Origin: Verrucomicrobium spinosum DSM 4136 = JCM 18804
Lineage (GTDB): Bacteria; Verrucomicrobiota; Verrucomicrobiia; Verrucomicrobiales; Verrucomicrobiaceae
Assembly: GCF_000172155.1 (NCBI RefSeq)
Contig: NZ_ABIZ01000001.1
Coordinates: 1,674,001-1,738,000, forward strand
DNA: 64,000 bases
Direction of reading: 5' to 3'
Part shown: one piece after another, positions 4,768 to 55,164 of the stretch
Position numbering within the stretch: the stretch's first letter is position 1
Layout: the number at the start of each line of letters is the position of its first letter
The notes under the pieces: generated by a model
Database searches by the model: none
Seen by the model: only the letters and a program-made list of their open reading frames with translations
Told to the model about the DNA's origin: nothing
Made by a program: the position numbers and the translations under genes

Positions 4768-4773
4768 GTTGGA

Positions 4774-5037: not shown

Positions 5038-5092
5038 TCCCGCCCTGCGGGATCACAGGTTCAAATCCTGTCCCCGCAACCAATTTCAAAGA

Positions 5093-11317: not shown

Positions 11318-12166
11318 TCACAGCCCGGGCACCAGGAGCGTCCCGGGGATGCCGCTGCGGATTTTTTGGTCCGGATTGTTGAAGAGAAGATGGACCTCGG
11401 AGAGGCCGGTGGCGGCGTCCACGGTGGGGGAAATGAAGCGGATGGCACCCTCGAGGAGGGTGCCGTCGGAGGAGTCGAGTGCGAGCTTGAGCTTCTGGCC
11501 CAGCCGGAGAGGTTCGGTGAGGCGGGCCGGCATGTGGACGCGGGCGATGAGCTGGGAGAGGTCCACGATCTTTGCCACGTAGTCAGGAGTGTCGGCCCGG
11601 CGTGCTTCCACGGCCTCGCCAGCATCGCGGGTGATCTCGGTGACGATGCCGTCGATGGGGCTGCGCAGGATGCGCTGCTCGAACTGGGCGCGAATGGTCG
11701 CGGCCTGGTGCTTCAGGTTCTCGCTTTCTTCTTGAGCGGCTTTGTACTGGCCCTCGGCGACGGCCACGGTGGCCTTGGCCTTGTCCCACTCCGCCTGATT
11801 GGTGCTGCCGCTGTTCCTGAGAGTCTCCAGGATGGTGAGGCGCTGTTTGGAGATCTGGTACTCCGCCTCGGCGGACTTGAGCCGTCCTTCATTGAGGGCT
11901 TGGGCCTCTGCCTGGGCAAGTTGGGCCTCGATCACCGTCGCGTTCAGCCGGAGGATTTCCTGGCCCTTCTTCACCTTGTCGCCGGGTTTCACCAGGATCG
12001 TGCTGACCACGCCGCTCTCGGCAGAGGCCAGGTTGATCTCATGGATGGGGCGCAGGAAGGTGAGCACCTGGCTGTCTGCTGCCTGGGTGCCTCCCGCCGC
12101 CATCGCAATGAGGCTGAGCGCAACCGCGATCAAGGCGGGACCTGGAGTTTGAGTGAAGGATTTCAT
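11318..12166 (-). CDS. Periplasmic adaptor / membrane fusion protein (HlyD/RND-MFP family)
   Basis: A 282-residue protein with a cleavable signal peptide (hydrophobic run about 10-25, likely cut after GGTQA). The barrel-sandwich (lipoyl-like) half-motifs are SAESGVVSTILVKPGDKVKKGQEIL and, after a coiled-coil hairpin of about 90 residues rich in Ala/Glu/Gln, RSPIDGIVTEI. A beta-barrel domain follows (VHMPARLTEPLRLGQKLKL). Such adaptors bridge inner-membrane pumps and TolC-type ducts. The start ATG overlaps the TGA stop of the SecA-like gene by 4 bp (ATGA), so the two are translationally coupled. I infer that it serves the export of the giant protein encoded divergently, not small-molecule efflux, because no RND or ABC pump is nearby. 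Confidence 0.88.
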   Translation of the reverse strand: MKSFTQTPGPALIAVALSLIAMAAGGTQAADSQVLTFLRPIHEINLASAESGVVSTILVKPGDKVKKGQEILRLNATVIEAQLAQAEAQALNEGRLKSAEAEYQISKQRLTILETLRNSGSTNQAEWDKAKATVAVAEGQYKAAQEESENLKHQAATIRAQFEQRILRSPIDGIVTEITRDAGEAVEARRADTPDYVAKIVDLSQLIARVHMPARLTEPLRLGQKLKLALDSSDGTLLEGAIRFISPTVDAATGLSEVHLLFNNPDQKIRSGIPGTLLVPGL

Positions 12167-14013
12167 GCGAGGCTTTTGCGGGTCTGGTCCATCCAGCGGT
12201 CACGCTGTTCCATCTGGATGCGCTGGGCGTAGCGGAGCTTTTGCACGCGGGTTTGCAGTGTGGAGAATAGGCGGGCGGTGGCGTCTGGCAAACGTCCGTC
12301 AGGATCGGCGGCCATGCGGGCGAGTTGTTTCCCTGTATCGGGGGCGAACTGTTCCATGAGATTGTCTTCGGCACTGAGGAAGAAGAGGGAGGTGCCGGGC
12401 TGGCCCTGGCGGGCGCACCGGCCCGCGAGCTGGCGGTCCACGCGGAGGGACTCGCTGCGCTCGACGCCGATGACGTGCAGGCCACCCAGGGCGAGGGCCT
12501 CTGGTGGCAGGGAGATATGGGTGCCGCGGCCGGCCATGTTCGTGGCCACCACCACGCTGCCCGGCTGCCCGGCCTGGGCGATGATGTCGTTCTCCTCGGA
12601 GTCCTGGCGGGCATTGAGCACGCGGTGGGGCACTCCGATGCCGGTGAGGATGGCGGCAAGATCCTCACTGATCTTGATGGTGCGGGTGCCCACCAGCACG
12701 GGTTGCTGGGTGAGCCAGCGCTGTTTCACCTCCGCCGCCACGGCCTGGAGCATGGTCTCCCGGCTGCGGTACACGCGATCTGGCAGGGACAGGCGGCGGC
12801 TGGGCTTGTTGGGCTCGATCGGGCGCACCGGGAGCTGGAAGAAGTGGTGGAACTCCTTGCGGCTCTCCGACCCGGTCCCGGTGAGGCCGGAGAGGCTGTC
12901 ATAGAGGCGGAAGTAGCGCTGGCGGGTGATGCTGGCGGCGGTGTGGCTCTCGGGCGGGATGTCCACGCCCTCCTTGGCGGCCACTGCCTGGTGCAGGCCC
13001 TGCTGCCAGGAGCGCTCCTCGTGGGCGCGCCCGGTGAACTCATCCACGATCACCACCTTGCCCTCCTGGAGGATGTAGTGCTCCCCATGGTGAAAGGCGT
13101 GGTGGGCATTCAGTGCATTCGTCAGGTACTGGTGCCACGGCCGCACGAGCGCGTCCCAGGGAATGCCCGGGCGCTGGTTGGCGGCGGCACGTCCCTCCTC
13201 GGTGAGGCGGGCATTGCGTCCCCGCGCATCGAGGATGAAGTCGTGGCCTTCCTGCAGGCTCTGCGCCGCCTCATGGGCGGTGAGGTAGGCCTCGGGCACC
13301 GTGCGCTCGGTGGACGGCTGGGCGATGACGAGCGGAGAGGCCGCCTCATCAATGAGCACGCTGTCGATCTCATCCACAATGGCGCTGGCCAGAGAGCGCT
13401 GCACCACCTCTGCCTCCGGGTGCTCCCGGCCCGTGAGGAGATTGCGCAGCCGGAAGCTGGGCCCATGTTGGGCGTGCTTCAGCAGGGCCAGTTGGTCGCG
13501 CAGGTAGTCGAAGCCAAAGTCGTACCCCGTGCCGTAGGTGATGTCGCACTGGTAGGCGGCGCGCTTCTCCGCGTGGCTCTGCTCCTGCTTCAAGTACCCT
13601 ACAGTGAGGCCCAGCCGGGCCGCAATGGGGGTGGCGAATTCAAAGTCGCGCTCCGAGAGGTAGGCGTTCACCGTGGCCACGTGGACGCCCCGCTTTGGCA
13701 GGGCCCGCAGGCATGCCGCCAGGGCGGTGATGAGGGTCTTGCCCTCCCCAGTGGCCACCTCGGTGATGGCGGGCTCCAGCAGGGCAATGATCGCCCTCGT
13801 CTGGCAGGGGTAGGCGCGCAGGCCACCCGCGCGAAAGGCGGCCTCTTTCACCACCGCCAGTGCTTCCGGCAGGATCCGCTCCAGAGTGGTGAGCTGTCTC
13901 AGCAGGTCAAAGCTCCACTGGCACCATTGCCCCTGGAGCGCCTCGTCCGAAAGCTGGGAGACGGCTTTTTCCCGGGCCAGGGATTGTTTAAGGATACGCT
14001 CAAGAGCTGACAT
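12163..14013 (-). CDS. SecA-like accessory ATPase lacking the C-terminal half of SecA
   Basis: A 616-residue SecA homologue. Visible parts: ALAVVKEAAFRAGGLRAYPCQ region, Walker A ATGEGKT (87-93), TVNAYLSERD, ITYGTGYDFGFDYLRDQ, Walker B DEIDSVLIDEA (214-224), a preprotein cross-linking-like segment (about 225-370), SLSGLTGTG, VATNMAGRGTHI (489-500) and GRCARQGQPGTS. Housekeeping SecA is about 850-1000 residues; this one stops within the first scaffold helix, so the two-helix finger, wing domain and zinc tail are missing. Two conserved motifs differ: GRGTD is GRGTH, and GRSGRQGD is GRCARQGQ. Nucleotide-binding residues are intact. It is coupled to the adaptor gene and divergent from the giant gene, which suggests a dedicated translocation role; this is inference. 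Confidence 0.9.
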   Translation of the reverse strand: MSALERILKQSLAREKAVSQLSDEALQGQWCQWSFDLLRQLTTLERILPEALAVVKEAAFRAGGLRAYPCQTRAIIALLEPAITEVATGEGKTLITALAACLRALPKRGVHVATVNAYLSERDFEFATPIAARLGLTVGYLKQEQSHAEKRAAYQCDITYGTGYDFGFDYLRDQLALLKHAQHGPSFRLRNLLTGREHPEAEVVQRSLASAIVDEIDSVLIDEAASPLVIAQPSTERTVPEAYLTAHEAAQSLQEGHDFILDARGRNARLTEEGRAAANQRPGIPWDALVRPWHQYLTNALNAHHAFHHGEHYILQEGKVVIVDEFTGRAHEERSWQQGLHQAVAAKEGVDIPPESHTAASITRQRYFRLYDSLSGLTGTGSESRKEFHHFFQLPVRPIEPNKPSRRLSLPDRVYRSRETMLQAVAAEVKQRWLTQQPVLVGTRTIKISEDLAAILTGIGVPHRVLNARQDSEENDIIAQAGQPGSVVVATNMAGRGTHISLPPEALALGGLHVIGVERSESLRVDRQLAGRCARQGQPGTSLFFLSAEDNLMEQFAPDTGKQLARMAADPDGRLPDATARLFSTLQTRVQKLRYAQRIQMEQRDRWMDQTRKSLA

Positions 14014-14236
14014 GGGCGACTACCATGGCCTGATGTTTGCTTGGAGAAATTAGAATCGATGCGAACCAGCCGCAGGGCAGGTCTCTATAAAGGGTGCCAC
14101 CACCTATCGCTAGGACAATGGCGGTTCAAATGGAGCAAGGGTAAGGCTAAAGGTGTATGAATAATTTGCATCCGTAAATATTAATAACTTGACGCAGAAA
14201 CTATAATAACTAGCATTGGCCCATTTTTAAACGGCC
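14014..14236. promoter_or_regulatory. Divergent promoter region between the SecA-like and giant genes
   Basis: The 223-bp gap becomes markedly AT-rich near the giant gene. TTGACG (14189-14194) and TAGCAT (14211-14216) are 16 bp apart; a perfect TATAAT (14202-14207) lies only 7 bp after TTGACG. Either could form the rightward promoter. No Shine-Dalgarno sequence precedes the ATG at 14237. Confidence 0.45.
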
Positions 14237-17200
14237 ATGATCCCTCCTAATTCCTCCCCTGGGGCCCCCAACCGCCGCAAAAAAGGAGGCTCCAAGCTCT
14301 CCAAACGCGTTGCTGACTGGTTTTTTGGAGGGGAGGCTGGCGAGGATCGGGTGCGACATGAGACGCTGGAGCCCCGCATTTTGTACTCAGCCAGTCCGCT
14401 GGAGGAGCCGCCGCCGGTGCCAGATGCCCCTCCAGTGGCGCAGCAGCAGGGGCCAGATGCGGGCAGTCAAGGCAGTGGAGAGGGCAGCGGCCCCGCGCCA
14501 GTCACGCAAGATCAGACCCCGCCCGTGGATGCGGAATCTGGGGTGAACCCAGAGGGTGATCTGGCCACCATCCTCCAGGGGGTGCAGGACCTTCCTGCCG
14601 GGGAGGTGCAGTCCCTGGTCTCCAACCAGCTGAGCCTGGAAATCCAGATGCAGGGCCACATCGACTGGAGCCAGATGGGGCTTCCCACCGACCAGCCCGG
14701 CACCATCCACATCCGTGGCACCGATCACACGGACGACCTCCTTTCGCTGGACTTGAGCCAGTTCTCCACGTCTCTGGACCTCTACTTTGACGGCGGCGCG
14801 GGTGGTTTCGATGTGCTGAAAATCACCGGGGTGACTTCGGGCGGCTACACTCCCGGAGCCCAGGCGGGTGAGGGCGTCCTCGTTTTTGGCAACCATCGCA
14901 TCCAGTTCTCCGGCGTGGAGCCCGTCATCATTGAGGGCACTGGTGAAGGTGCCAGCTTCACCTTCACCACCCCGCATGGTGTGGATGACCTGGTGCTGGA
15001 CAGTCCGGCGGATGGCTGGAGCCGCATCCGCGGCACCAGTGGCGGAGTCGCCTTTGAGGAGCTGGTCTTCTCCAATGTGGAGCAGGTCATCGTGGACGCC
15101 ATGTCCCATGACGCTCCCGGCGAGAGTGCGGATGAGGTGACCGTTGCCACCGATCTGCGCGCCCGTGGCCTGCGGGAGCTCACCATCCTCACCGGGGAGG
15201 GGGATGACACCCTGGTTCTCGGGACCAACAATCTCCCGCCACCCGTCTCTGGCGGGAGCTTCACCTTTGACGGCGGGTCTGGAAATGACCGCATCATCGG
15301 TTCTGGTGCAGATACGACCTGGTTGGTGACCGGGCACAATGAGGGAAGCGTGTATGGCTTGCGCTTCAGCGGGGTGGAAAATCTGGAGGGAGCGGCGGAC
15401 AATGAAGACCGCTTTGTGTTTGAGACGGCCGGTCAGCTGGATGGCTTGATTGACGGGGGTGCTGGTGGGTTCGATACGGTAGTGCTCGACGGAGGAAGTT
15501 CCGCGAACGCAGTTTTCCGGGCATTTGGTCCCGATTCTGGTCTGATTGAGACAGACCTCTCCACGCTGGCCTATCGCGGGCTGGAGCCGATTGACTACAG
15601 CGGCACTTCTGACGCCATCATCCACCTCACGGGTGGGGACGACCAGGCGATCCTGGAGGTGAATGAGCACGGCCAGCTGAGCCTGCGTTCACTGAACAAC
15701 AGCTTTGAGCTGATCAATTTCAACACGTCGCTCAATTCGCTCACCATCATCGGTGGAGGCGGGTATGACAGCGTGCTGGTGGGCGACGGGGTGACCCTGG
15801 GGCTGGATGGCAGCTTCACCATTGAGTCAGAAGACATCACCGTGGCCGCAGGAGCCACCGTGAATGCAGGCACCATCCGTCTGAGCGCCTATGATGGAGA
15901 TGCCACCGGCATCGGGGTGACCACGCAAGTGGGGGTGGTGAATCGCACCGCCTCCCTGGTGGTGAGTGGCACCCTTAACTCCGACGGCACCCTTACGTTG
16001 GAGGCGCTGGCTTCGCGCAATGTGCATCTTTCCGGTCTTGATGAAGCGATTCTCAGTGCACTGACCACGGCCACCGTCACGGTGGAGACTGGTGCCGTCG
16101 TCCAGTCAGCGGGGTTGACCACGGTCTCCGCCCTCACTTCGGGGATCGTCGAGTCCACTGCTGCGGACTTGGTGCTGCACGCTTTCACAGAGAGCGCCTC
16201 CACCTACATCGGGTTTGCCACCTTCACCGTGGCAGGGCTCTCCGTCTCCGCCACCACCAGCGGGGCGTATTCCGCCACTTCACGCACCGCGACGAATCGC
16301 GTGGCAGGCATCACGTCCGCCGTGCTGGATGGCACTGTCGTGAACTCGACCGCCGCGGTCTCTGTGGTGGCGCTGGACAACTCCAGGCTGGACGCGAAGA
16401 CGGGCAACGTCTCCACGGATCTCGTCTCCCTGGTGGGCGATGTCGTCATCGGCCAGTCGTTTGCTCTCAACGATCTTCATCGCCTTGTTCAGGCCGCGGT
16501 ATCGGGTGCTGATGTGGATGCCAGCGCCGGTGGCCTGGCCGTCACGGCCACCCGGAACATTGATGCCTCCTCCAATGTGGGGGTCGTCGCCGTCACCGGT
16601 GGCCCCGCCTCTCTCCTGCCCAGCCTCAGCTTTGGCGGCACCAAGGCGGTGAATGTGATCTCCGGGGAGGTTTCCTCGCTCCTCTCCTCCAGCGATGTCG
16701 ATCTGGCCACCGGCGGGGTCACCGTGTCTGCGGCGGACACCTCCCAGGTGTCGGCCCATAGCAAGGTGGCGGCGGCTTCGACCGTGGGAGAGTTCTCCAC
16801 CTTGTCTGCCGGACTTTCGATCGGCATGTCGGAGGCCTGGAACCTCTACGGCGTGCGACCAGACGATGTGGCGGCCCTTGACATGACGGATCTGCTTGGG
16901 GCGGATCTGGGGGGGACGTTGTCCGGCCCGGTAGTGGCAGTGGTGCAGGATTCCACGCTGGATGTGGGTGGGGACGTCTCCGTGCTGGCTACGGCTCAGG
17001 TGACGCTTGATTCTGAGGTGACCAATCTGGTGGACACCGCGGTGGACGGATTCTCCGGCACCGGCGCGGCGGCGGCAGGTGCTGTCTTCTCCTCCAACAT
17101 CGTCAACACCGGTGCCAGTGCAGTGATTCGCCGCCAGGTAGAGGCCACCACGGTGACTGCTGCGGGGGACATCCTCGTGTCGGCGGTGGATGAGTCCTCC

Positions 17201-20200
17201 CTCACGGCGACCACCAGTTTCAAGAACACGGCCACGGCGGAGAGCCTCAATCCCCTCAGTGATGCCGGTGCGGTGGCGGTGGGCGGCATCATTGTGCGCA
17301 ACCAGTTCACCTCCGGCACCTACGCTGCGATTGGAGGGGCGGACGTGGAGGGTGCCTCCGTGACGGTGAAGGCGGACTCGCATGCCACCGTTGTTTCCTT
17401 GACGGACAGCGTGGTGAAGGTGGAGGGCGGCAGCCCGTTTGTGGGGGCGGCCACGCTGGCTGCCCAGGGAGTCATCGTCACCAACAACGTCCTCGGCGGG
17501 GCTGAGGCGCGGGTCGCCGGGGGCGCGGTGACCTCCACGGCAGGCGCGGTGACGGTATCAGCCGTCAACCAGTCGGAGATCACGGCGGAGAACAGCAGCG
17601 TGGTCACGGCGGACAACACCGCAGTCGGGGTCAATCTCGCCTACAACACTGTGGGCTATGAGCCGCAGGACCTGGCCACGCTCACGCTCGATGCCCTGGT
17701 GGGCCTGAGCCTGGGCACGGTGGATCGTGCCCTCGCCCATGCCATCATTGAGGACGCACAGGTCATTTCCGCAGGCGATCTGGTCGTCACCGCGGACAAT
17801 CTTCTGGCCCTGGAGTCCTCTGTGACCAACGAGGCCCTGAGCGAGGCGCTGGGCTTCACGGCTGCGAGTGGCCAGGCGGCCAGTTTTGTACTTTCCTCCA
17901 ACCTTGTGGCCGGCGGGGCACTGGCCCTGCTACAGTCAACCGGGGCCACGCTGGCCGCGCAGGCGGGCGGTGCCGCCACCGTGCGCGCCACCCAGGGCGG
18001 CAGCTTGAAGGCCGGTACGCGCATCCGTGCCGCGGCTGAGGTCACCAACGACAACGTCTTCAGCGAGTCCGACTCGATGGCGCTCGGCGGCATGCTGGTG
18101 CGCAATGATCTGGATGCCGCCGCGGAGGCTAGCGTGCAGGGCATCGATCTCACGGCGGACTCCATCCAGGTGCGGGCGGAGCAGACCGCAGTGGTGGAGG
18201 CTGAGGCCAATGCCGAGGTCGAGTCGGTTGGTGGAAATATTTTTGGCGGCGGCCAGTCCATGGCCGTGGGTGCCGTCATCGCGGCCAACACGCTGCGTGG
18301 TGGCGTCACCAGCCTGGTGGCTGATTCCACCCTCACAGCGGGGGATGGGGCCGTGGAAGTGTCGGCCGAGAATGCTCTGCAACTGCAGGCTACGAACAGC
18401 AGCCAGGTCAGCAGCGGCAATCAGGCTGCGGGCGTGGTCGCCGCATTCAATACCGTCGGCTACGAGAACCAGAACCTGCTTTTCCAGGCCGTCGATGCCC
18501 TCGTGGGCTCGCCCATCGGAGACACCGCGCAGACCAGCACTCAGGCCCTGGTGGTGGACACCGGCGTCTCCGCCACAGGGGGACTCACCATCTCCGCGGA
18601 AAACTCCGCCAGCCTTGATGCCAGCACCGACAACGGCGTGGCCGGCGTCGCGGAAGGTTTCACGGGTGTCAGCAGCACCGTGGCTGGAGGCGTGCTCGCC
18701 AGCAACATGATGGCCAGCACCGTTGCCGCCAGCTTGAAGGCTGGGGACGAATTGATCACCGTCGATGTGGGCGGAGCTGTGTCCGTGCAGGCTGCGAATG
18801 AATCCGTCCTCAATGCTTCATCCACGCTGTCCCTGCTGTCGCAGACCACCAGCGACAATGAATTTTCGGCGGATGATTCCACGGCCATTGGTTTCCTCAG
18901 CGTGCGCAACTTGCTGGATGGCGGCGCGTCGGCAGAGATCGTCCATGCCAGCGTCACGGGTGGCAGCATTGCCATTGCCGCAGACAATGCCACCACCCTC
19001 AATGCAACGATTGACGCCGAAGCCAGTGCCTCGGGCGGCAGCACATTGGGCGATGGCACGCAGATCGCGGCCAACGGAGTGATCGCGAGCAACTCCGTGC
19101 TGGGCGGCGCTCTGGCTCAGGCCAATGACAGCACCTTGACGGCCGAGACGGGTGGCGTGAGTGTCACCGCCGACAACAGCGTGAACCTGACGGCGGAGAA
19201 CGCCAACCAGGTGACCAGCGGGGACACTGGCGCAGGCGCGATGCTGGCGTTCAACACGCTGGGTTATGAGAGCCAGAACGTGCTCTTCCAGACGCTGGAC
19301 GCGCTGATTGGTTCGGAGATCGGTGATGCCGCCCCCTCCCGTGCGGATGCGCTGGTGACCAACACCAACATCACGGCCAAGACTGATGTCACGGTGGAGG
19401 CGACCAACGCCTCCATCTTGAACGCCACGTTCGACAACACCTCTGAGAGCCAGGCAAGCGGGTTCACGGGGCAGAACACGATGGCGGCAAGCTTTGTGGT
19501 GGCCAGCAACTTCGTGGCCTCCGGTGCCCGGGCGGCCATTGAAGGAGCAGCTCCCGAGATTGAAGCTGAAGGCGCGGTGTCGGTCAAAGCGTCCGACACT
19601 TCTGAGCTTAATTCCAGCAGCACCATTGGCCTGGTTGCGGAAACCACCAGCGACAATGAACTGAGCGCTGACAACGCGATGGGCCTGGGTGGCATCAGCG
19701 TGCGCAACGTGCTGGAAGGCGGCACGGTGGCAGAAGTGTTCAACGCGGACATCACCGGGAGCAGCATCAGCATTGAGGCGGACAACCGCGCGAAGCTGGA
19801 AGCCACGGTGGATGCGGAAGCCACGGTGGCGGGCGGCAGCACGCTGGGTGACGGCACGCAACTGGCGGTCAATGCGGTCATTGCCAGCAACACGGTGCTG
19901 GGCGGGGCTTTGGCTCAAGGAGTCAACAGTGAACTCACGGCCACCACGGGTGACGTCTCAGTGACGGCGGCCAATGCGCTGGAACTCAGCGCGACCAACG
20001 CCAACCAGGTGAGCAGCGGAGACACCGGGGTGGGGGCGATGCTGGCGTTCAATACGCTGGGATATGAGAGCCAGAACATCCTCTTCCAGACGCTGGACGC
20101 GCTGGTGGGCACGGAGATTGGCGACAAAGACGCTTCCACGGCAGAGGCCCTGCTGACCAACACGAATGTGACCGCGGCAGGCGGAGTGACCGTCTCGGCC

Positions 20201-44200: not shown

Positions 44201-47200
44201 ACCCTCCTGAAACTGGATGTGGATCTGGCGCTGCTACAGTCCTCCGGTCTGGCGGACGCTCTAGCCCGCATCGCCGCCATTGAGGAGCTCAAGGATGACG
44301 TACAGCGCGGAGCAGACACCACCCTGCTCTCCACGCTGGGAGATGCCCTGGTCGCCGGTGCCGACACGAGCCTCGTGCTGCAGGCCTCCACCAACGCCAT
44401 TCGCTTCAGCGATGGCAGTGCGGCCACGCAGTCCGGGTTTGAGCAGGCCCTCAAGTCCCTGGTGCAGGAGCTCGTGGATGCGGATGGAGTCGCGGGTGCG
44501 ACTGCCGAAGGCCGCGACGCGATCCGCAGCCTGATGACAAACCTGGGACGCCTGGATCCCGCCAGCGCCACCTTTGCCGCCGATGTGCAGACCATCGCCG
44601 CACTCGGCACCCAGGTGGATGCCGTGAGCGTTATTGCCACGAACTTCTCCCAGCAGATTGCCGCTCTCGTGGAGCAGAGCAACGGGCTGGTCTTCAAGGC
44701 TGCCTCGCAGTCCTACACCCTGCCGACCAGCCTCACGGCCCGGTCCGGCGTGTACACTGTGGTGGGCCGCATCTTTGACGGTGGCGGCTATCGCGAGGTG
44801 CAGACCAAGGTGACCGTGGTGAATGAAGCCCCGCTCCTGGCGATTGACTTCAACCAGACCATCGTGGTCGCCAACGAAGGCTCCGTGGCCATCGTGACCG
44901 GCACTTATTACAACCCGGGCGGTCTGCCGCTGCGCGACATGATCGCCCAGTACGAGGGCATGGCCGACGGGGAAACCTACGGCACGGTGACGTTCACCCA
45001 GCCCGATGCCAACGGCAACGGCACCTGGACCTGGACCCACACGCTCGATGACGGTCCGATCGACTCCCAGAAAAAGGTCATCATCACGGCCTACGATCAG
45101 GACATCTCCCAGCTCAACCCGCTGGGCACGCCCACGCAGACCTCCTTTGAGCTGCAAATCATCAACGTGGGCCCGACCGTGGAGCTCGATCCGATCGTGA
45201 TCAATGAAGGGGACATCTTCACCCTTGATCTGAGCGGAGCGCAGGATCCCTCCAGCGCTGACAACAGCGGACCCTTCAGCTACACCTACAACTACGGCGA
45301 TGGGAAAGGCTTCGTCTCCGGTTCGATGGTACAGCAGGTGCCGTCCACCGTGGTGGATGACAATGGAGAACTGATCATCCAGGGTCGTGTGATCGACAAG
45401 GATGGCGGCGCAGGCAAAGTGTCGCAGAAGGTGACGATCCTGAACGTCAGTCCGACGGTTCATGACCTCGCGGTGAGCGGCCCGGTCCTGGAGACCGGCA
45501 CGGTCACTCTCACCGGCAAGTTCACTGACCCGGGCGCTGGCGATGACCATATGCTCACCATCGACTGGGCGGACGGCTCCACCGAGACGCTCACGATCAC
45601 CGCGGCCAATCCGGCCAGCTTCGCCATCAACCAGGCGGGCAGCGGATTCGTGAACACGGTGAATGCAGCGGTCTCCGGCGGCTCCGGCACCGGCATGATC
45701 GTCAATCTCCTGGCCGGTGAGGACGGCGGCCTCGCGGCCGTTCAGGTGGTCAGCACCGGCTCGGGCTACCGTGCGGGAGATGTGCTCAGCATCGGGAACG
45801 CCAGCTTCACCCTGGTGGCCCTGCGGACCGGCACCACCACAGACTTTGCCCTCAAGCACACGTACAACGACGACGCTCTGCTCCCCGGCGGTCAGGGTAC
45901 GGACGTGTACACCATCAAAGTCACCGCGACGGATGACGACAACGGCAGCGGCTCCGCCACCGTGGGTGCCACTGTCATCAACGCAGATCCGACGATCAGC
46001 GCCCCCACCCTCACGCTCACGAATGGTGATGACCTGCCCACCAATGGCAGCGGCGATCCCACGGTGACGGGCGGCACGGTGGTGAACCTGAGCGGATCCT
46101 TCGAGGATCTCGGCCCTGAGGACACTCACACCGTCACGATCGACTGGGGTGATGGCACCAGCGACACGCTGACCTTTGGCGGGAACACGGTCATCGACTT
46201 CGAGCGCGATGGCCAGCTCAACCCGCTGCTCTCAGGCGATCTGGCCGGCAATGCCTATCTCGACCAGGCAGGCGGCCGTGGCTTCACCATCTCGACCGGG
46301 GATCCGTCCCGTCCGCCGATGATCTTTGATTCCGCGAACCCGACCGGCGGCGACTTTGACATCGCCACGCCCAACATCCACTACGGTGGCCTGGGGCAGC
46401 ATGCCACGGTGCAGGCACCCGGCTCGGTGGTGACGGGCAAGTACGGCAGCTTCAGCTTGCTGGAGGACGGCAGCTACTCCTATGTGGTGAACAGCAACAG
46501 CCCCTCCCTGGCGATGCTGCAGGCCGGCCAGACGCTGACGGAGACCTTCCACTACACCCTGACCAATGGCGTGCGCGCCAGCCTGGACATTGTGGTGGGC
46601 CGCTCCAGCAGTGATCCGACGGTGGCCACCACGGCCAACGGCAGTGCCAATCCCTACACCGGCACCCTGCCTCTTGTTGGCACGGAGGTGGCCAATGTGA
46701 TCGTCTCCGACGAGTCCCTCCGCATTGAGGGAGCCTCCACCACAACGGGTGAAGGCATGAACAACCTCGCCCTGGGCAAGGTGCTCATCATCTCCAAGGA
46801 TGGCGACGCCACCAACCCCAACGACGATGAAGCAGGTGGCAGGCTCATCTTCGACTTCAAGAGCCCGGTCTATCTCGAAAGCATCGATATCATCGACATC
46901 AACGAGAAGGGGGGCACCATCCAGATCTACGACGCCCAGGGTCGCCTGCTCTCCACCACGGTGATCCCGGCGGTGGGTGAGAACACCCTGCAGACGGTCT
47001 TCGTGAAGGGCCAGCCCAACGGCTCCCCGTATGAGGCCAGCCGCATGGTCGTCACCCTCGCAGGCGATGGCGCGATCTCCGAGCTGGTGTACAAGGATGT
47101 GCACCCGGTGCGCGAGTTCAGCATCAACCACCGCTACCTTGAGGAGTCAGCTCCTGGAACCCCGCACCAGATCAAAGTGACGGTGGAGGACGATGACGGC

Positions 47201-48241: not shown

Positions 48242-48253
48242 TCTCCTCCCAGC

Positions 48254-48289
48254 AGTCTGCCGCCTGGAGTCTTGCTTCAGGCGCAGACT
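48254..48289 (+). terminator. Hairpin between the giant gene and the TolC-like gene
   Basis: AGTCTG-C-CGCCTG pairs with CAGGCG-CAGACT, a 12-bp stem with one bulge and a loop of about 11 bases. No clear T-run follows, so it may be a partial terminator, an attenuator or an mRNA-processing or stability element within an operon. Confidence 0.5.
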
Positions 48290-48315
48290 GACTCAACTTT
48301 ACTCAACACCTCAAC

Positions 48316-50649
48316 ATGCAACACACCCCCCCGCCTGAACCAACCCCCGCCTCCTCCCCAGGCTGGACCAATCTGACCTGGGTGCCCCTCGTTGCCCTGG
48401 CGACGGTCATGACCGCGTCTGGGCAGGAGGCACCCACCTCCTCGGATGTCCCGGCCAAGCAGGAGGCAGCTGCTCCCAAAGACGCCAAGGAGATTGAACT
48501 GATCGAGCAGCAGCTCGTCGCCCAGATCGCGCTGACGCAGATGGCCCTCACCCAGATGATGATCTCCCGGCCGCCAGACCTTGGTGAAGGGGATGTGGAT
48601 GAGAAAGCTGCAACCACCGAAAGCTCTGATGGGGAGAGTGCAACGGAGAAGCCTGCCCCGGTGAAGAAGCACCCGACCGGTGTGGCCAAAAAGGCCCAGG
48701 TCGCGAAATCCACGAAAACGACGGAGCGGACTGTCGTCTCCAAGAGCGTCGCCCCTGCTCCCGCGCCAGAAGTGGCCGCCCCTGCTCTGGTGAAAAAGAA
48801 GCGGGGCTGGTTCTCCCGCATGTTCACCGATGATGACGATGACAAAAAACAGGCTCCCGTGGCGGCTCCTGCCACCGTGGCCCAGCAGCATGATGACAAG
48901 CTGAAAACTTACTTCCCGGATGCTGGGGATGGCTCCGTGAAGATCTCCAAGCATGAGCAGTTCGGCAATGAGGCGGTGGCCGGCATTTTTGGTGAAATTG
49001 TCCGCGAGACCCAGCGGTTCAATTCACCAGAACTGGAGCTTTCCAGCATTTCCAAACTGCCGCCTGTGCCGGATGACTTCGATGCCAGCTGGAAGACGCA
49101 GATCCGCGAGCAGGTTTGGGAGAACCAGACGCCTGTGCGCTATGGCGTGGAGAAGGCTTACTCCACCGCGCTGAACAACTCGCCCAACGTCCGTACCTTC
49201 CTGCGCATCCCAAAGATCCGCGAGACCTTGATCCGGGAGAACAAGGGGATCTTCTCCCCCCAGCTTTTTGCGGAGCTGGACTACGCGCATGGTGACCAGC
49301 CTACGGGCTCCGTCCTCACCACCGGCAAGACGGGCCGCTTTATTCAGGACACCCTGGAAGGCGAGTATGGCATCCGCCAGCGCATCGGTACCGGCGGGGA
49401 GGTTTCCCTCTCGCACCGCATGAGCACCCTGCGGAACAACTCAGAATTCCTCGACCCCAACCCCCAGACTGGCAGTGAGCTGGTGCTCTCTGTGGCCCAG
49501 CCGCTTTTGCGCGGGGCAGGCTCCACCTATGTGCACAGTGAGATTCGCCTGGCAGAGCTGGACCGCAGCATGGCCCGTGGCGAAACGGTGCGTCTCCTGG
49601 AGGAGTACATCCTGGAGGTGAACCGCGCCTACTGGGGCGTGTACCTCTCCCGCGCCGCCCTGGCCCAGCGCCAGCAGCTGACGAAGCAGACCTCCGAGCT
49701 GCTCAAAATGCTGGAAGAGCGCCAGAAGCTGGATGAGTCCGCCACGAAGAGCGAACTCTTCCGCGCGACGGCCACCATGAACCGTCGTGAGGCGGACCTC
49801 CGCCGCACCCGCATGGCCGTGCGCACCGCTGAGCAGCGGCTCCGTGCCATGATGAAGGATCCCGCCGCCCCCATGGGTGCCAGCGGGGAGATCATCCCGG
49901 TGTCCCGGCCGCACCTGGCCCGGCCGCAGGTGGACATCCAGTCCATCTCCAAGGAAGCGCTCCTGAACCGCTCTGAGATGGCCCAGGCCTCCTCCAAGGT
50001 GCGGTCCGCTGCCGTGCGCCGCAGTCAGGTTATTTCCGAGTTGCGCCCGCAGCTCGACCTCGTGGGTGAGGTGGGGTCCGCAGGGATCAGCGGCGGTCGG
50101 AATCTGGGCAACGCCATTGATGACCAGACCAGCAGCGGCCTCGACTGGAGCGTCGGCCTGCGCTTCAGCTACCCGCTGGGCAATGATGCGGCCAAGGCCC
50201 GTCTGGACCGTCGCGAGATCGAGTACCAGCAGTCGCTGGATGACTACCGTATCCAGGGGGAAAACGTGCTGCTCCAGACCGTGGTGGCCTACCAGGACCT
50301 GCTCACCGCCTATCAGGACATGGCTGGCAAATACCAGTCCGCCCTGGCCTCCCGTCGTGAGATCCAGCAACTGCAGGATCGCATGAAACTGGCGGACCAG
50401 GATCCAGGAAAAACGGTGGCCTACCAGATCCAGCTGCTGCTGGATGCGATCGACCGCAATCAAGTGGCGGAGGAGGAGTTCCTCGTGGCGGTGGTGGCTT
50501 ACAACACCTCCATCGCCCAGCTCCAGCGCGCCCAGGGGGTGTTGATGAAGGTCAAGGACGTGGTGCCCCTGCACTATGGCCCGCAGAGCAGCCCCACGGC
50601 GGCCGATCCACGCCTGCCCGTGGGTCTGAACCTCAAGTCCACCAAGTAG
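48316..50649 (+). CDS. TolC-family outer-membrane protein with a long N-terminal extension
   Basis: A 777-residue protein. Residues about 20-36 (TWVPLVALATVMTASG) look like a signal-peptide core. Then come a Gln/Leu-rich helix (ELIEQQLVAQIALTQMALTQ), a low-complexity Pro/Ala/Lys/Thr segment to about 200 with KKKRGWFSRMF and an Asp run, and the TolC-like domain from about 270 to the end. That domain has the repeated coiled-coil and strand pattern of the family (GEYGIRQRIGTGGEVSLSHR, SVAQPLLRGAG, LRFSYPLGNDAAKARLDR). Canonical TolC is about 450-500 residues, so some 250 residues are extra. It starts 74 bp after the giant gene on the same strand; I infer it is the exit duct for that protein. It ends 3 bp from the convergent M50 gene. 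Confidence 0.87.
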   Translation: MQHTPPPEPTPASSPGWTNLTWVPLVALATVMTASGQEAPTSSDVPAKQEAAAPKDAKEIELIEQQLVAQIALTQMALTQMMISRPPDLGEGDVDEKAATTESSDGESATEKPAPVKKHPTGVAKKAQVAKSTKTTERTVVSKSVAPAPAPEVAAPALVKKKRGWFSRMFTDDDDDKKQAPVAAPATVAQQHDDKLKTYFPDAGDGSVKISKHEQFGNEAVAGIFGEIVRETQRFNSPELELSSISKLPPVPDDFDASWKTQIREQVWENQTPVRYGVEKAYSTALNNSPNVRTFLRIPKIRETLIRENKGIFSPQLFAELDYAHGDQPTGSVLTTGKTGRFIQDTLEGEYGIRQRIGTGGEVSLSHRMSTLRNNSEFLDPNPQTGSELVLSVAQPLLRGAGSTYVHSEIRLAELDRSMARGETVRLLEEYILEVNRAYWGVYLSRAALAQRQQLTKQTSELLKMLEERQKLDESATKSELFRATATMNRREADLRRTRMAVRTAEQRLRAMMKDPAAPMGASGEIIPVSRPHLARPQVDIQSISKEALLNRSEMAQASSKVRSAAVRRSQVISELRPQLDLVGEVGSAGISGGRNLGNAIDDQTSSGLDWSVGLRFSYPLGNDAAKARLDRREIEYQQSLDDYRIQGENVLLQTVVAYQDLLTAYQDMAGKYQSALASRREIQQLQDRMKLADQDPGKTVAYQIQLLLDAIDRNQVAEEEFLVAVVAYNTSIAQLQRAQGVLMKVKDVVPLHYGPQSSPTAADPRLPVGLNLKSTK

Positions 50650-50652
50650 TGA

Positions 50653-52908
50653 TCACGACGCGGGGCTGAGGAAGGCTTTTTCCAGGTAGGTGCGTACCGC
50701 GCGGTACAGGTACCAGCCCAGAGCCTCCTCAGTCTCGCCTTCATAGAACGACCGGCCCCATTCCCCCTCCTTCAGGTCTGCCGCCTCCTGGGCGGCGGCG
50801 TACAGGGTGAATCTGGGTTGCAGCAGCTCCATGTTCTCCCGCTGGGTTTCGGGCTTGATGGAGTCGTAGTAGGTGACAGACTCGGACCGGTCAGCCCCCC
50901 GGGCAAGCCCCTGCTTGTTGGTGGCGGTCTCTCGCTGGCTGATGCTGCGCACCGCGAGCGGCCCGTCCGCAGATGATGCCAGCACCTGGCTGGGCACCGC
51001 CAGGGTGGCCTTCGTCTCCGCCCTGCGGAACTTCGCGTGATATTCACCGGGCCGGCCCAGCAGCCGGATGCGGAAGGACCGGGGGGCAGACGCCAGTTCC
51101 GGGCCGATGCGTTGAAAGTCCTGCTGACGCATCGAGATGAGAAACTCAGGGGCCTCATCGGGGATGACCGTGAGCAGAGGATGGCCGGTGTCAAAGAATG
51201 AGCCCCGCTGCTGCGGCAGCCCGGGCGCATGCACCCGGCCGGAAATGGGGGATCGCACCTCCATGGCGCGCACGCGCTTTTGCTGGACGGCCACCTTCTC
51301 CTTGAGCCCCGCCGTCTTCTGCTGCTCGGTCTGCCATTCCTCGAACCGACCGGTGAGGTAGAGCATGCGCGCCTTGGTTTCTGAGAGGCCCAGCTGGGCG
51401 TGATACATCTCCAGCTGGACGACCTCCGGCTCGTTGGCCAGATCGATGAGTTGCTGCCCTTTCTCCACCCGCTGGCCGTCCTTCACATACTGCCGGGCCA
51501 TGAAGCCCGGCACTTCTGCCCGCACCACGGCTTTCCCGGGATACTCCACGACCGCCAGCCCGGCCGCCGAGGGATTGATCTGGATGAACAACAGCGCCGC
51601 CACCACGACCAGCAGCCCCAGACCGATGCGCCACCACGCCGTGCCCCATGGGATGTGGCCGGCCTTTTCCGAGGGCTTGAAAAAAGAGACGGCGGAGTGC
51701 AGAAATCCCGCCACGCCAAGCACGCCTGCAATCAACAGCGGCAGCAGACCCATGCCGTGAAACAGATGCGCGGCCAGCGCCATGAGGCCGATGGTGACCA
51801 GGATGCGCCAGCACCAGGAGGCCACCCCGTAGGTGAGGTAGGTGAAGAACCGCTTCCGCACCACCGGCGGCAGGGAGGCATGCTTCGCCCCCAGAAAGAG
51901 CCGCCGGTTCAGCCAGGTAAAGGCCTGCTGCCCGCGTTGACCCAGATTCCGCAGATCCAGCAGGTCGGAGAAGATGTAATAACCGTCAAAACGCATGAGC
52001 GGATTGGCGTTGAACAGCAGCGTGATCATGGAGGCGGAGATCAGCACATTGAAGCAGATTTCCCGCAGCAGCCCCGGCTCCGTCACCGTCCAGAGATGCA
52101 GCGCCGCCACCGCCAGCAGCAGTTCCACATACATGCCTGCCGCCGCCACCTTGATGCGGTGCCAGCGGTTGGGGAAACGCCAGCTGGAGCTCGCATCCAC
52201 ATACGTCATGGGGGAGATCCACGCGATGATCTGCACGCCCCACTCCGGCACGACCCCGCCGTACTTTTGCGTGGCGATGCCATGCCACAACTCATGCACC
52301 AGCTTGAGCCCCACCGTCACCCCGAGAAGCCAGAACCAGTTCTGGGGCAGGAGGGCGCGTGAAGACGCCTCCACGAGCTCCACATAGTTCGACATCGCCA
52401 GGTACGCACCGTAGCCCGCGGCCACCAGCGCCAGCAACAGGGGCAACGGGTTCAAGGTCCAACCCAGCGCGCGGGTGAAGGGCAGGAGGAAGGAATCTGG
52501 TGAACCCAGCGGGAGTTTGAAGGAGAAGAACTTCTGCCATTGCTTCCCCATCGACTTGGGCGTCTGGTCCTCCGCGTGGGCCAGCCGGCGGTCTGCCTGG
52601 TCCGACCGCGTGGTCTGCAGCAGGTGGTGGTCGATCGCCCACCTCAGCAGCGATTCCGCTTCGGTCTCCGTGAGTTCGTTTTTTCCAGCGGAACATTCCG
52701 CCACCAGTTTCGCCGCAGGCTTGGTCCCGTTGAGGGAGCGCAGGAAGCGGTACTCCGGTACGCCCAGCTGGTGGTAGCTGCGGTTCGAGCGGTCTTCCAC
52801 CACGTACATGGCCCGGCCTTCCACGATCTGGAAGTGGAACTGCAGGTCCTGTCGCAGCCGGGGGCGGGCAGTGTCCCAGGTGACGACGGCGTGATCGATC
52901 ATCGACAT
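50653..52908 (-). CDS. Membrane fusion: PqqD-like domain + M50 metallopeptidase + HlyD adaptor
   Basis: A 751-residue protein. Residues about 15-100 resemble a PqqD-like/winged-helix peptide-binding domain (YHQLGVPEYRFLRSLNG). Hydrophobic segments start at about 150. The zinc site of site-2-protease-like M50 peptidases is complete: HELWH (205-209) and NANPLMRFDGY (300-310) with its aspartate. More membrane segments run to about 445. The C-terminal part from about 450 is a HlyD-type barrel-sandwich (VVRAEVPGFM, DGQRVEKGQQLIDL, then SPISGRVHAPG) in the periplasm. The start lies 4 bp after the stop of the upstream GAF/HlyD gene, so they form an operon. Possible roles are processing of the exported giant protein or use of the M50 fold as a non-proteolytic scaffold. 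Confidence 0.85.
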   Translation of the reverse strand: MSMIDHAVVTWDTARPRLRQDLQFHFQIVEGRAMYVVEDRSNRSYHQLGVPEYRFLRSLNGTKPAAKLVAECSAGKNELTETEAESLLRWAIDHHLLQTTRSDQADRRLAHAEDQTPKSMGKQWQKFFSFKLPLGSPDSFLLPFTRALGWTLNPLPLLLALVAAGYGAYLAMSNYVELVEASSRALLPQNWFWLLGVTVGLKLVHELWHGIATQKYGGVVPEWGVQIIAWISPMTYVDASSSWRFPNRWHRIKVAAAGMYVELLLAVAALHLWTVTEPGLLREICFNVLISASMITLLFNANPLMRFDGYYIFSDLLDLRNLGQRGQQAFTWLNRRLFLGAKHASLPPVVRKRFFTYLTYGVASWCWRILVTIGLMALAAHLFHGMGLLPLLIAGVLGVAGFLHSAVSFFKPSEKAGHIPWGTAWWRIGLGLLVVVAALLFIQINPSAAGLAVVEYPGKAVVRAEVPGFMARQYVKDGQRVEKGQQLIDLANEPEVVQLEMYHAQLGLSETKARMLYLTGRFEEWQTEQQKTAGLKEKVAVQQKRVRAMEVRSPISGRVHAPGLPQQRGSFFDTGHPLLTVIPDEAPEFLISMRQQDFQRIGPELASAPRSFRIRLLGRPGEYHAKFRRAETKATLAVPSQVLASSADGPLAVRSISQRETATNKQGLARGADRSESVTYYDSIKPETQRENMELLQPRFTLYAAAQEAADLKEGEWGRSFYEGETEEALGWYLYRAVRTYLEKAFLSPAS

Positions 52909-52912
52909 GGTC

Positions 52913-54742
52913 TCACCAGGGCAGGTTCAGGCGGATGAATTCCAGCGGGCGGTGGAAGAGGATCCACCCCAGACTCTTGTTTCCGCTGGTGATGCGGGCC
53001 TTGCCCTGCATGCCGGGGCGCAGCCGGCCGCTGCTGTTGTCCAGCGTGGTCGTGCCCAGGAAGACGTTCTTGCCCTCATGAATGCGGGAGACCGGCTCCA
53101 GGGTATTCACCACCCCGGTCTGGCGGAACTCCGCCTCCGACTCAAGGCGGATGGAGACGGACATGCCCGGGGCGACATGGCGGATCTCAGAGGCGGGCAC
53201 CGCCAGTTGCACGGTGAAGCTCTCGATGGGGGCCACATCAAAGAGGCGCTGCCCCCGCTGCACCGGCACGCCCTCAGACTGGGAGAGGTCTCCGGAAATA
53301 ACCACACCGTCCAGCGGCGAGCGGATCTGGAGGTTCTCACTCTGGTACTGCAGGAGCCGGCGCTCCGCATCCAGGGACGCCATTTCCAGGGAGGCGAGCT
53401 GCGCCTCAGACATGTTTTCCGCCGCCAGCATCTGGTCGCGGCGTTTGGTGAGGGCGTTCAGCCGTGCCTGTACCTCGGCCAGTTTCCAGCCGATTTCCTT
53501 GCCATCCAGCTCTGCGAGCACCTGCCCCTGCTGAATCTGTTGTCCTGGCTTCACATGAGCGGCCGCCAGGATGCCGTCGAACGGCACCGCCACCTGCCTG
53601 CGCAGTTCGGGATCACTCCAGCAGGGCACTCCCAGCTTGTAGGGGAGGGGGACGAACATCAGCGCGGTGAACAGCAGCAGGAGTGCCAGCACCACGGAGC
53701 GGCGCGACCACCGCGCCTCTGCCACATGCTGCTGGTAGAAGCCCAGCAGCCCTGCCGGACGCGCCATGCGGATCGTCTTTGCCGCAGCGCCCACATGGGG
53801 CGTCACGGCATCCGCCAGCCGGAGTTTCTCCGCCGCCGGGCGTTCTGCCCACCAGCACACCCATACGCCAAAGATTTCCCCCTCCACGTTCTTCAGCGGG
53901 TGCACGGTGACGGCCTTGGCCTTGAGTTGATCCAGCAGCCCGTCCTGATCGCTGGCCAGATTCAGGCCCGGCATGGCAGCCAGGATCTCCAGCGGCCAGC
54001 CAATCGCACTGCCCACGGCGATGGATTCCCGCATGAGCTGTGCCGCCCGTTGCAGCGTCTGGCTGCGGTGGTCAAACTTGCTCCCTGGTGCCAGCGCCTC
54101 CACCCGGCAGTTGAGCCTGGAACCGAGACCCACGGCCACATACTCCGCCCCCACAAAGGTGCGCAGGTCTTCCGCCAGCACCTGCATGCCCCGCCGGAAG
54201 GTGGGAGCGGAGGCGGAGCGGTAGATGGTGTCAAGAAACAAGCACGTCTGGTCCAGCCCGTGACGCAAAGACTCGCTCTCCTGGAGCAGCCGACGCTGCC
54301 CGTACAGAGATTGCGGAATGATCAGCATCTGGGCCAGCCGCGTCTCCTGGGCGGGATCCAGGGCCGAGGCACTCAGCAGCAGTGCGACTCCCACAGAGCC
54401 TTCCTGCTCCAGGCCCATGGCCCACAAGATGAGGCCCACCTGGTTCAGCTTGTGCATCACCCGGGTGCGGGACTTCAGGCCTGCCACCAGAGTGGCCCTC
54501 ACCTCCGGTGCCTCCAGCAAACCGGGTGGCAGGGAGACGCGAATGCGGGTGGCAAGGAGCGCGACTGTGCCGGATTGCTCCGCGTAGATCAGGGTGGTGG
54601 CCCCCGTCAGCTCTGCCGCGTGTGCCGCCAGTCCGCGGTAGAACTGGCTGTCATCCTTGGCCTGGAGCAGCGATTTCAGCTCTTGCGGCGTGGCCGATCC
54701 TCCGGGCGGCGCGGGGAGTCGAATGGCCTCGGCAGATTTCAT
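52913..54742 (-). CDS. GAF-like domain + transmembrane helix + HlyD-type adaptor
   Basis: A 609-residue protein. Residues about 20-330 form a cytosolic region with GAF-like character (QFYRGLAAHAAELTGATTLIYAE near the start; VLAEDLRTFVGAEYVAVGLG at about 188-207). A single transmembrane helix at about 349-366 (SVVLALLLLFTALMFVPL) leads to a periplasmic HlyD-like part: VPFDGILAAAHVKPGQQIQQGQVLAELDG, a coiled coil, RSPLDGVVISG, then a beta-barrel. This type-II topology fits an inner-membrane adaptor whose cytosolic domain could sense a ligand or recruit a partner. Downstream is the M50/HlyD gene after 4 bp; upstream, 80 bp away, is the DUF3467 gene, with a terminator-like hairpin between. Confidence 0.8.
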   Translation of the reverse strand: MKSAEAIRLPAPPGGSATPQELKSLLQAKDDSQFYRGLAAHAAELTGATTLIYAEQSGTVALLATRIRVSLPPGLLEAPEVRATLVAGLKSRTRVMHKLNQVGLILWAMGLEQEGSVGVALLLSASALDPAQETRLAQMLIIPQSLYGQRRLLQESESLRHGLDQTCLFLDTIYRSASAPTFRRGMQVLAEDLRTFVGAEYVAVGLGSRLNCRVEALAPGSKFDHRSQTLQRAAQLMRESIAVGSAIGWPLEILAAMPGLNLASDQDGLLDQLKAKAVTVHPLKNVEGEIFGVWVCWWAERPAAEKLRLADAVTPHVGAAAKTIRMARPAGLLGFYQQHVAEARWSRRSVVLALLLLFTALMFVPLPYKLGVPCWSDPELRRQVAVPFDGILAAAHVKPGQQIQQGQVLAELDGKEIGWKLAEVQARLNALTKRRDQMLAAENMSEAQLASLEMASLDAERRLLQYQSENLQIRSPLDGVVISGDLSQSEGVPVQRGQRLFDVAPIESFTVQLAVPASEIRHVAPGMSVSIRLESEAEFRQTGVVNTLEPVSRIHEGKNVFLGTTTLDNSSGRLRPGMQGKARITSGNKSLGWILFHRPLEFIRLNLPW

Positions 54743-54752
54743 GACAGAGGGG

Positions 54753-54788
54753 AAAAAGCAAAGGGCTCAATCCGGGAGGATGGAGCCC
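54753..54788 (-). terminator. Terminator or attenuator between the DUF3467 and GAF/HlyD genes
   Basis: On the minus strand GGGCTC-C-ATCC pairs with GGAT-T-GAGCCC around a TCCC loop, followed by TTTGCTTTTT. It ends 10 bases before the GAF/HlyD start codon. It may end most DUF3467 transcripts or act as an attenuator. Confidence 0.65.
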
Positions 54789-54822
54789 ACGCGAAAGGAA
54801 AGCTGGCAGTGGACCACCCGAC

Positions 54823-55164
54823 TCAGGCGGATGCCTTGCCCTGGCGGCTGGCTTCCACCTGCTTTTGAATCACCCCTGACAGTGTCTGGACCAGCTTCAG
54901 CGCATTGGCCGGCGTCAGCGCGATGCGCTTTTGGATCGGCAGCACGTGACGGCCTGTGTTGTGGTCAGAGATGATGCCTGTGGAGAAGTCGAGCACGATC
55001 TGGTCACGCCCGGAGTTAACAATCACCTGGTTGGCGAAAAGGGCGCCGGTTTCCTCATAGAGGATTTGAACGTTGGGCTTGTTAATGGCCTTGAGTTCTT
55101 CCTGGTCTCCGGGGGCATCAGAACCTGCGGAGGGCTTCACGGACTTGGCTTTGGGGTCGCTCAT
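54823..55164 (-). CDS. DUF3467 protein
   Basis: A 113-residue cytosolic protein. After a Lys/Ser/Asp-rich N-terminus the conserved DUF3467 pattern appears: ALFANQVIVNSGRDQIVLDFSTG, then RIALTPANALKLVQTLSGVI at the C-terminus. The family is widespread in PVC and other bacteria; no biochemical role is known to me. It is first in the leftward group with the GAF/HlyD and M50/HlyD genes, suggesting a regulatory or chaperone-like part in the export system; this rests on position alone. A promoter with consensus-like hexamers lies about 35 bp upstream. Confidence 0.82.
   Translation of the reverse strand: MSDPKAKSVKPSAGSDAPGDQEELKAINKPNVQILYEETGALFANQVIVNSGRDQIVLDFSTGIISDHNTGRHVLPIQKRIALTPANALKLVQTLSGVIQKQVEASRQGKASA

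Follow-up and report, generated by a model that had tools for sequence, protein, structure and literature searches.

A candidate leader-guided exporter for giant LEPR-motif proteins in Verrucomicrobium spinosum

Introduction

Type I secretion systems are formed by HlyB, HlyD and TolC. In 2015, Kamneva, Poudel and Ward described a locus in which, on their proposal, SecA takes the place of the ATPase and an M50 protein serves as the pore; the broader role of this secondary SecA_DEAD locus is called "completely unknown" in the accessible part of their article (PMC4452313). Here, we analyze a locus of this kind in a 64,000-nucleotide stretch of the genome of Verrucomicrobium spinosum DSM 4136 = JCM 18804 (hereafter the window: C1:1674001-1738000 of a single-contig genome of 8,220,857 bp; all coordinates below are window positions). 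In the window, the machinery genes lie around a gene encoding a protein of 11,334 amino acids (aa), which carries a so-called LEPR motif close to its N-terminus. We propose that these genes probably, though by no means certainly, encode an envelope exporter that is guided by a leader and serves very large surface proteins.

The machinery itself and the idea that SecA energizes it are already known. An initial annotation, made from the window sequence alone, had read the SecA-like ATPase as the energizer and the M50/HlyD protein as the inner-membrane component, which is what the accessible text of PMC4452313 had proposed. The main text of that article makes no mention of LEPR, giant proteins or DUF3467. 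Similarly, secretion and SecA are not mentioned in the accessible text of an article about giant genes of Planctomycetes (PMC5177795), nor are Planctomycetes and Verrucomicrobia in the first 300,000 of the 747,799 characters of a review on type I secretion (PMC8277102). LEPR-XLL is mentioned in passing in the accessible literature, where a Vibrio protein of ~8,000 aa has been likened to secreted pore-forming cytotoxins. The assignment of a cargo, a leader family shared by SecA-bearing, SecA-less and peptide-type loci, and a domain reading this leader were not found in the literature searched, outside which lie preprints and most subscription papers. With a defined leader, reader domain and protease, the present proposal on how some of the largest bacterial proteins exit the cell is testable.

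In the proposed system, the cargo would have an N-terminal LEPR leader in place of a Sec signal peptide. A recognition element (RRE) located at the front of an RRE/M50/HlyD fusion protein, presumably on the cytoplasmic side, would bind the leader as RREs do in the pathways of ribosomally synthesized and post-translationally modified peptides (RiPPs). The membrane M50 domain of the fusion would hold the cargo at the inner membrane, may form the channel or a part of it, and would probably cut the leader. A short SecA, with its ATP motor kept and its wing/scaffold gone, would feed the long unfolded chain, and the HlyD half of the fusion would, together with a GAF/HlyD protein and a separate HlyD protein, build a periplasmic conduit to a TolC-like duct. 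Relatives devoid of SecA would work by the same leader/RRE/M50 principle. The link between leader and RRE, absent from the initial annotation, is the most informative part of this proposal.

The locus consists of the following features:

11318-12166, minus strand: HlyD/RND_mfp periplasmic adaptor, 282 aa (TIGR01730, 4.7e-39)
12163-14013, minus strand: short (secondary) SecA_DEAD ATPase, 616 aa (SecA_DEAD 3.3e-88, P-loop_SecA, SecA_PP_bind)
14237-48241, plus strand: giant protein, putative cargo, 11,334 aa (LEPR-XLL match, NF012209)
14345-14422, plus strand: LEPR leader of the giant protein, residues 37-62
48316-50649, plus strand: TolC-like outer-membrane duct (OEP), 777 aa (OEP/TolC-like, 9e-17)
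50653-52908, minus strand: RRE/M50/HlyD fusion, 751 aa (M50 0.00035, under the family cut-off in the window member)
50689-51585, minus strand: MacA/MexA-type periplasmic adaptor half of the fusion, residues 442-740 (structure match, Z ~15)
51982-52005, minus strand: NPLMRFDG motif of the fusion, residues 302-309, second half of the M50 active site
52282-52296, minus strand: HELWH zinc-protease motif of the fusion, residues 205-209
52609-52869, minus strand: predicted RRE (PqqD-like) domain of the fusion, residues 14-100 (structure prediction)
52913-54742, minus strand: HlyD adaptor with a long N-terminal region, putatively GAF-type, 609 aa
54823-55164, minus strand: DUF3467 protein, accessory, 113 aa (1.4e-07)

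Distribution of the Machinery

Eleven further loci, spread over 10 Verrucomicrobiota genomes, have this gene set or one nearly identical to it, so that the arrangement is far beyond chance. In a set of 145 genomes, termed Verrucomicrobiota after the phylum of the window's relatives, 30 have an M50/HlyD match at E < 1e-20, and the surroundings were inspected in 35 stretches of at most 20 kb from these genomes. Class I comprises 11 stretches (10 genomes) which contain a short SecA next to the M50/HlyD gene, with OEP, HlyD, GAF/HlyD, M50/HlyD and SecA genes in this or a variant order; the OEP of one of them (L052) was identified via Pfam, and another (L058) shows no separate HlyD. Class II comprises the 24 stretches (19 genomes) without SecA; over the whole genome, SecA_DEAD is matched just once in 18 of the 19 and twice in G086. 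The trio of HlyD, GAF/HlyD and M50/HlyD genes is complete in 32 of the 35 stretches (incomplete in L058, L078 and L086). Among the best 80 of 570 matches in named genomes, relatives of the M50/HlyD protein are found in Verrucomicrobiota, Planctomycetota and Proteobacteria, the nearest one, from Verrucomicrobium sp. BvORR034, being 90% identical to the window protein. According to PMC4452313, an operon of Methylobacterium extorquens AM1 holds M50/HlyD, short SecA, GAF/HlyD and HlyD genes.

All the genes of the initial annotation were found where it had placed them. Its gene set recurs, but two members are not constant: SecA is absent from 24 of the 35 stretches and DUF3467 was found at only 5 of 115 other loci (with Pfam support at L196 and L198, and at L122, L123 and L201 solely by a home-made model, which may miss divergent copies). 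DUF3467 was therefore rejected as a core part and is regarded as accessory.

A membrane fusion protein and a TolC-like duct are both present in the window block. As the initial annotation had noticed, no ABC or RND transporter family matched among the block products in a family scan, for which the giant protein was scanned piecewise. Elsewhere, an open reading frame (ORF) with an ABC signature occurs within 3 kb at 5 of the 115 other loci, that of L052 resembling ABC-F proteins and not exporters.

Putative Cargo Proteins and Their Leader

The link between leader-bearing proteins and this machinery is strong. LEPR-XLL (NF012209) is an NCBIfam model built independently of the present analysis, which matches residues 40-60 of the window giant with 25.9 bits (cut-off 17). 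Within the Verrucomicrobiota set, it matched 12 of the 145 genomes, i.e., all 11 genomes with a SecA operon (window included) versus 1 of the 134 others (Fisher p 1.2e-15). In this last genome (G119), 500 open codons precede the match, which is not N-terminal. In Planctomycetota (149 genomes sharing the phylum of G147, Planctomycetes bacterium K23_9), NF012209 matched 8 of the 32 genomes that have a strong M50/HlyD hit (E < 1e-60) and none of the other 117 (p 2.1e-6). LEPR genes can be remote from the operon, as in G018 whose three matches are 149 to 699 kb away, and 6 of the 11 SecA-operon genomes hold two or three matches. A system "dedicated" to one protein, as first annotated, is for this reason too narrow a description, while the link between leader and machinery stands.

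Putative cargo of class II loci, missed by NF012209, begins with the same LE-x-R-x-L motif when the N-termini are read: LEKRILFDGAG (L077) and LEDRVLFEAAA (L083) are the leaders of two DUF4347-domain proteins, and MYQLEDRILFDGAA (L070) is that of another large ORF. Among 772 ORFs of at least 400 aa from the 115 loci, the window being left out, the motif is present in residues 1-110 of 34 ORFs, versus 1 and 4 in the next two stretches, and the leader-bearing ORFs found near machinery genes are mostly large.

A leader model (A6) was built from 41 rows, with the invariance of LE-x-R resulting from the motif used for row collection. In Verrucomicrobiota, A6 matched 24 of 145 genomes, of which 23 are among the 30 M50-positive genomes and 1 among the 115 others (p 1.5e-19). 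In Planctomycetota, 13 of 149 genomes were matched (11/32 versus 2/117, p 5.4e-7). Since A6 contains rows from some genomes of these two phyla, the positives are partly circular, which does not apply to its near absence elsewhere. Gammaproteobacteria, which in GTDB take in the former Betaproteobacteria, were sampled as 369 genomes sharing the class of G152, a Thiotrichaceae metagenome-assembled genome. Here, 20 genomes carry the leader, 16 of the 54 M50-positive ones (E < 1e-50) versus 4 of 315 (p 1.6e-11); A6 has no proteobacterial row, and the M50 model used for this class (A7) has six. The initial annotation had named a lack of conserved co-localization as the finding that would contradict a joint function; instead, LEPR is tied to the SecA operon in Verrucomicrobiota and co-occurrence extends to two further groups.

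The window giant is composed of the LEPR leader, a long repetitive part and, in its last third, PKD, Big_9 and cadherin-like domains, these domains pointing to a role at the surface or in adhesion. It has no hydrophobic signal stretch (maximum KD13 hydropathy of 0.22 in the first 100 residues, compared with 2.67 for the Sec-type hydrophobic N-terminus of the 282-aa adaptor and 1.97 for the duct). As values of up to 1.70 occur in other LEPR-type proteins, Sec export cannot be dismissed for every one of them on grounds of hydropathy alone. With NCBIfam, the last 832 aa of the giant matched VCBS and no RTX model, a search which would miss a repeat-free C-terminal signal. Even longer leader-bearing open frames were seen in other genomes, with 20,466 aa (G015:C142:82000), 19,216 aa (G018:C1:3411902) and 18,984 aa (G091:C1:3960286).

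The residue following LExRxL[LFY] was compared in 27 Verrucomicrobiota leaders (L207-L227 and L231-L236, L228-L230 being left out): all 11 leaders from genomes with a SecA operon have Ser at this place, and the 16 others have Asp, Glu or Ala. Ser as a marker of SecA was nevertheless rejected, as the rule is broken by G093 (SecA operon, Asn) and by L161, L181 and L189 from Planctomycetota (Asp with SecA), and descent confounds it. A further variant was observed at the SecA-less locus L064, with LEQRQLLAG and LETRTLLAG leaders on two nearby ORFs (1756-5049 and 15391-16845).

Leaders also occur on small ORFs: the LESRHLFAAAA type is found beside radical SAM and PqqD-like proteins. Three RiPP-like clusters (L063, L065 and L066) contain HlyD and M50/HlyD genes along with two small LExR-leader ORFs each. 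L063 encodes a YydG-like radical SAM protein (110 of 300 bits), a stand-alone PqqD-like protein (lasso PqqD, 25 of 80 bits), an ATP-grasp protein and alpha-E proteins. It is possible that these clusters represent a new RiPP class.

The RRE/M50/HlyD Fusion

The fusion protein is ordered as a predicted RRE fold, an M50 domain with a conserved active site and a MacA-type adaptor. The first 145 residues were modeled from 68 sequences, and the block of residues 11-100, with pLDDT values of 81-96, is predicted to form an RRE of winged-helix fold, with three main strands followed by three helices. The top Foldseek matches of this model are TbiB1 and a lasso-peptide B1 protein, both solved with leader peptides (E 0.013-0.03, probability 1.00). 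With VIA-align, TigE (Z 9.8), lasso B1 (9.1), TbiB1 (8.7) and the PbtF RRE (8.0) were retrieved, with ThcOx, MibB, MccB and TruD as near-by matches; the list names no PqqD entry, which does not count against PqqD. The "PqqD-like" label of the initial annotation is supported by this predicted fold, although Pfam is silent on the window protein; among 12 class I fusion proteins, PqqD was matched by Pfam in 6 at E up to 1 (best 0.0026) and M50 in all 12. Its "GAF" label for the neighboring adaptor finds no match in the window protein itself, but GAF_2 matches, with E values of up to 1 (best 2.3e-07), were obtained for 14 of 20 homologues.

In the full-length model (pLDDT 88.8), the M50 part resembles an RseP orthologue (Z 10.1 over 134 residues), with HExxH and NP...DG predicted to lie in membrane helices, and the adaptor half resembles MacA/MexA (Z ~15). 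HExxH is kept in 86 of 87 fusion homologues (first His and Glu in 87, last His in 86), and Asn, Pro, Asp (Asp308) and Gly of the second motif in all 87. This conservation exceeds what a mere pore would need. The RiPP protease model NF041824 spans both RRE and M50 parts (residues 16-408) with 152.4 bits, under its cut-off of 300.

The Short SecA

The genome holds two SecA_DEAD matches: a canonical SecA of 1,065 aa from its first ATG, which carries SecA_SW, the wing/scaffold domain (5.7e-60), and SEC-C, and the 616-aa window protein, which, like its relative from L056, has neither. That the window gene is a decayed SecA copy was rejected, because 37 short SecAs from several groups form a single clade (support 1.0) excluding all 31 canonical SecAs sampled, verrucomicrobial only and including one 674-aa frame (L117), and because 12 of 12 short SecAs keep their motor motifs unchanged. 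Four SecA2 models were compared with the window protein and all score under their cut-offs.

Among the matches listed for Planctomycetota, 18 of 33 short SecAs are within 10 kb of an M50/HlyD gene, and 20 of the 23 genomes concerned have a strong M50/HlyD match. In Gammaproteobacteria, a short SecA is present in 8 of 20 stretches fetched from 19 genomes of this class. Genomes with a SecA operon have the longer leader-bearing frames (median 7,876 aa, n=16, versus 2,298 aa, n=22; p 0.0013), in a test that is weak, with the G064 row (no M50) left out, some frames cut by contig ends and genomes repeated. SecA as the cause of gigantism was retained as a tendency only: G014, which has no SecA operon, possesses a leader frame of 16,206 aa, and SecA is therefore not strictly needed for giants.

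Other Genes in the Window

A second giant gene, of at least 2,425 aa, runs off the window end (56726-64000). Its product has 11 stretches of PATR autotransporter repeats and a signal-peptide-like hydrophobic N-terminus (KD13 1.96), so that the two neighboring giants seem to differ in export route. A type II/IV secretion ATPase (T2SSE, 3.1e-97) is encoded close to the block (8894-10180, minus strand).

Alternative Explanations

Several observations weigh against the proposed exporter. The leader occurs without M50 in Verrucomicrobiota G064 and G119 (internal in G119), in Planctomycetota G200 and G230 (the latter with a short SecA) and in Gammaproteobacteria G383, G430, G520 and G649, of which G383 and G430 have a weak or partial M50. 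Conversely, no leader was detected with NF012209 and A6 in 5 of 30 Verrucomicrobiota and 19 of 32 Planctomycetota M50-positive genomes, nor with A6 only in 38 of 54 from Gammaproteobacteria; in two of the five Verrucomicrobiota (G042 and G054), leaders are found by motif search. Regarding SecA, it is missing in 24 of the 35 Verrucomicrobiota stretches, 15 of the 33 listed planctomycetal short SecAs have no M50/HlyD neighbor within 10 kb on the same contig, and G014 combines its giant frame with a single SecA match in the genome. An ABC-signature ORF lies inside the gene set at two loci (L053 and L057). The Foldseek E-values of the RRE model are weak (best 0.013, none below 0.001), and unrelated chains, GdmN and PKMT2, reach VIA-align Z values of 7.9 and 7.7. 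Finally, the three M50 cut-offs were picked after viewing score gaps, and genomes within one group are not independent.

Such leaderless genomes are in line with a type-I-like exporter as conceived in 2015, in which SecA would only hydrolyze ATP, M50 would only form the pore and the cargo would be unrelated, the LEPR giant being a chance neighbor. The same gene set and reasoning are indeed found in the accessible text of PMC4452313. We consider this explanation unlikely: leader or LEPR co-occurs with the machinery in three groups, even when the giants are remote as in G018, and a pore alone would not require the HExxH motif. The chance-neighbor component, taken by itself, is rejected in view of this co-occurrence.

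M50 enzymes normally cut membrane-held substrates. This habit would fit a scenario in which LEPR proteins are exported by Sec or by an unlinked type I ABC exporter, the M50/HlyD protein acting later as a leader peptidase and a surface-anchoring or release device. The ABC-signature ORFs within the gene sets of L053 and L057 also favor it. On the other hand, the window giant lacks a Sec-type hydrophobic stretch, even if other LEPR proteins have higher hydropathy, ABC-signature ORFs are near the genes at few loci (the 5 of 115 above, plus 2 of 20 gammaproteobacterial stretches considered over their whole length), and the RRE would be on the cytoplasmic side. This scenario is thus judged improbable. 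The insert of L057 (12539-16988) has OEP, HlyD, ABC and FtsX matches and is placed between the GAF/HlyD and duct genes; that of L053 (13401-17654) has the same sequence clusters at the same place.

That the machinery exports small RiPP-type products, the giants having acquired a look-alike leader by convergence, draws on the clusters at L063, L065 and L066 with their radical SAM, PqqD-like and ATP-grasp proteins, and is very improbable, given that family scans matched no maturation enzyme among the window block products, that RiPP enzymes were encountered at no locus other than these three (with neighbors family-scanned at few loci), that leader-bearing ORFs near the machinery are mostly large, and that leader and machinery co-vary across genomes.

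Comparison With Known Systems

The leader-guided exporter may even be a secretion type of its own, a claim for which we see about even chances: an RRE-M50-adaptor fusion would read LExRxL leaders on cargo of ~100 to ~20,000 residues across Verrucomicrobiota, Planctomycetota and Gammaproteobacteria, one branch being equipped with a motor derived from SecA. If true, a single machine would serve both RiPP-style leader recognition and the export of megadalton proteins, LEPR-XLL would gain a function and the 2015 locus a cargo, and RiPP leader recognition would be bridged to protein secretion.

The system shares with type I secretion one or several periplasmic adaptors, a TolC-like duct and giant repeat proteins as cargo. 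It differs from it in that the window block contains no ABC exporter, the tag is N-terminal and there are three adaptors. With SecA2 and accessory Sec systems, it has in common a second SecA whose DEAD motor and preprotein cross-linking domain are intact; unlike them, the window SecA is devoid of wing/scaffold and SEC-C and is tied to HlyD and TolC genes.

RiPP pathways offer a second point of comparison, through the predicted RRE fold, and so do M50 RiPP proteases (daptide NF041824, YydH/LiaK NF058609), through the match of NF041824 to the RRE and M50 parts. In contrast to these proteases, the window fusion scores under the curated cut-offs and is joined to an HlyD adaptor, its cargo would reach thousands of residues, and no maturation enzyme accompanies it in the block.

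The window giant passes the curated cut-off of LEPR-XLL (NF012209, LEPR-8K), a model whose name states no function, and the leader family delineated here is wider, including LEDRILFDGAA and LESRHLFAAAA types. A close counterpart is the secondary SecA_DEAD locus which, in the accessible text of PMC4452313, likewise comprises a SecA without SecA_SW, M50/HlyD and HlyD/biotin_lipoyl proteins and sometimes an OEP, together with a GAF/HlyD protein to which the putative GAF-type adaptor of the window would correspond; to this locus, the present analysis adds a putative cargo leader, a predicted RRE domain, a conserved protease site and SecA-less relatives.

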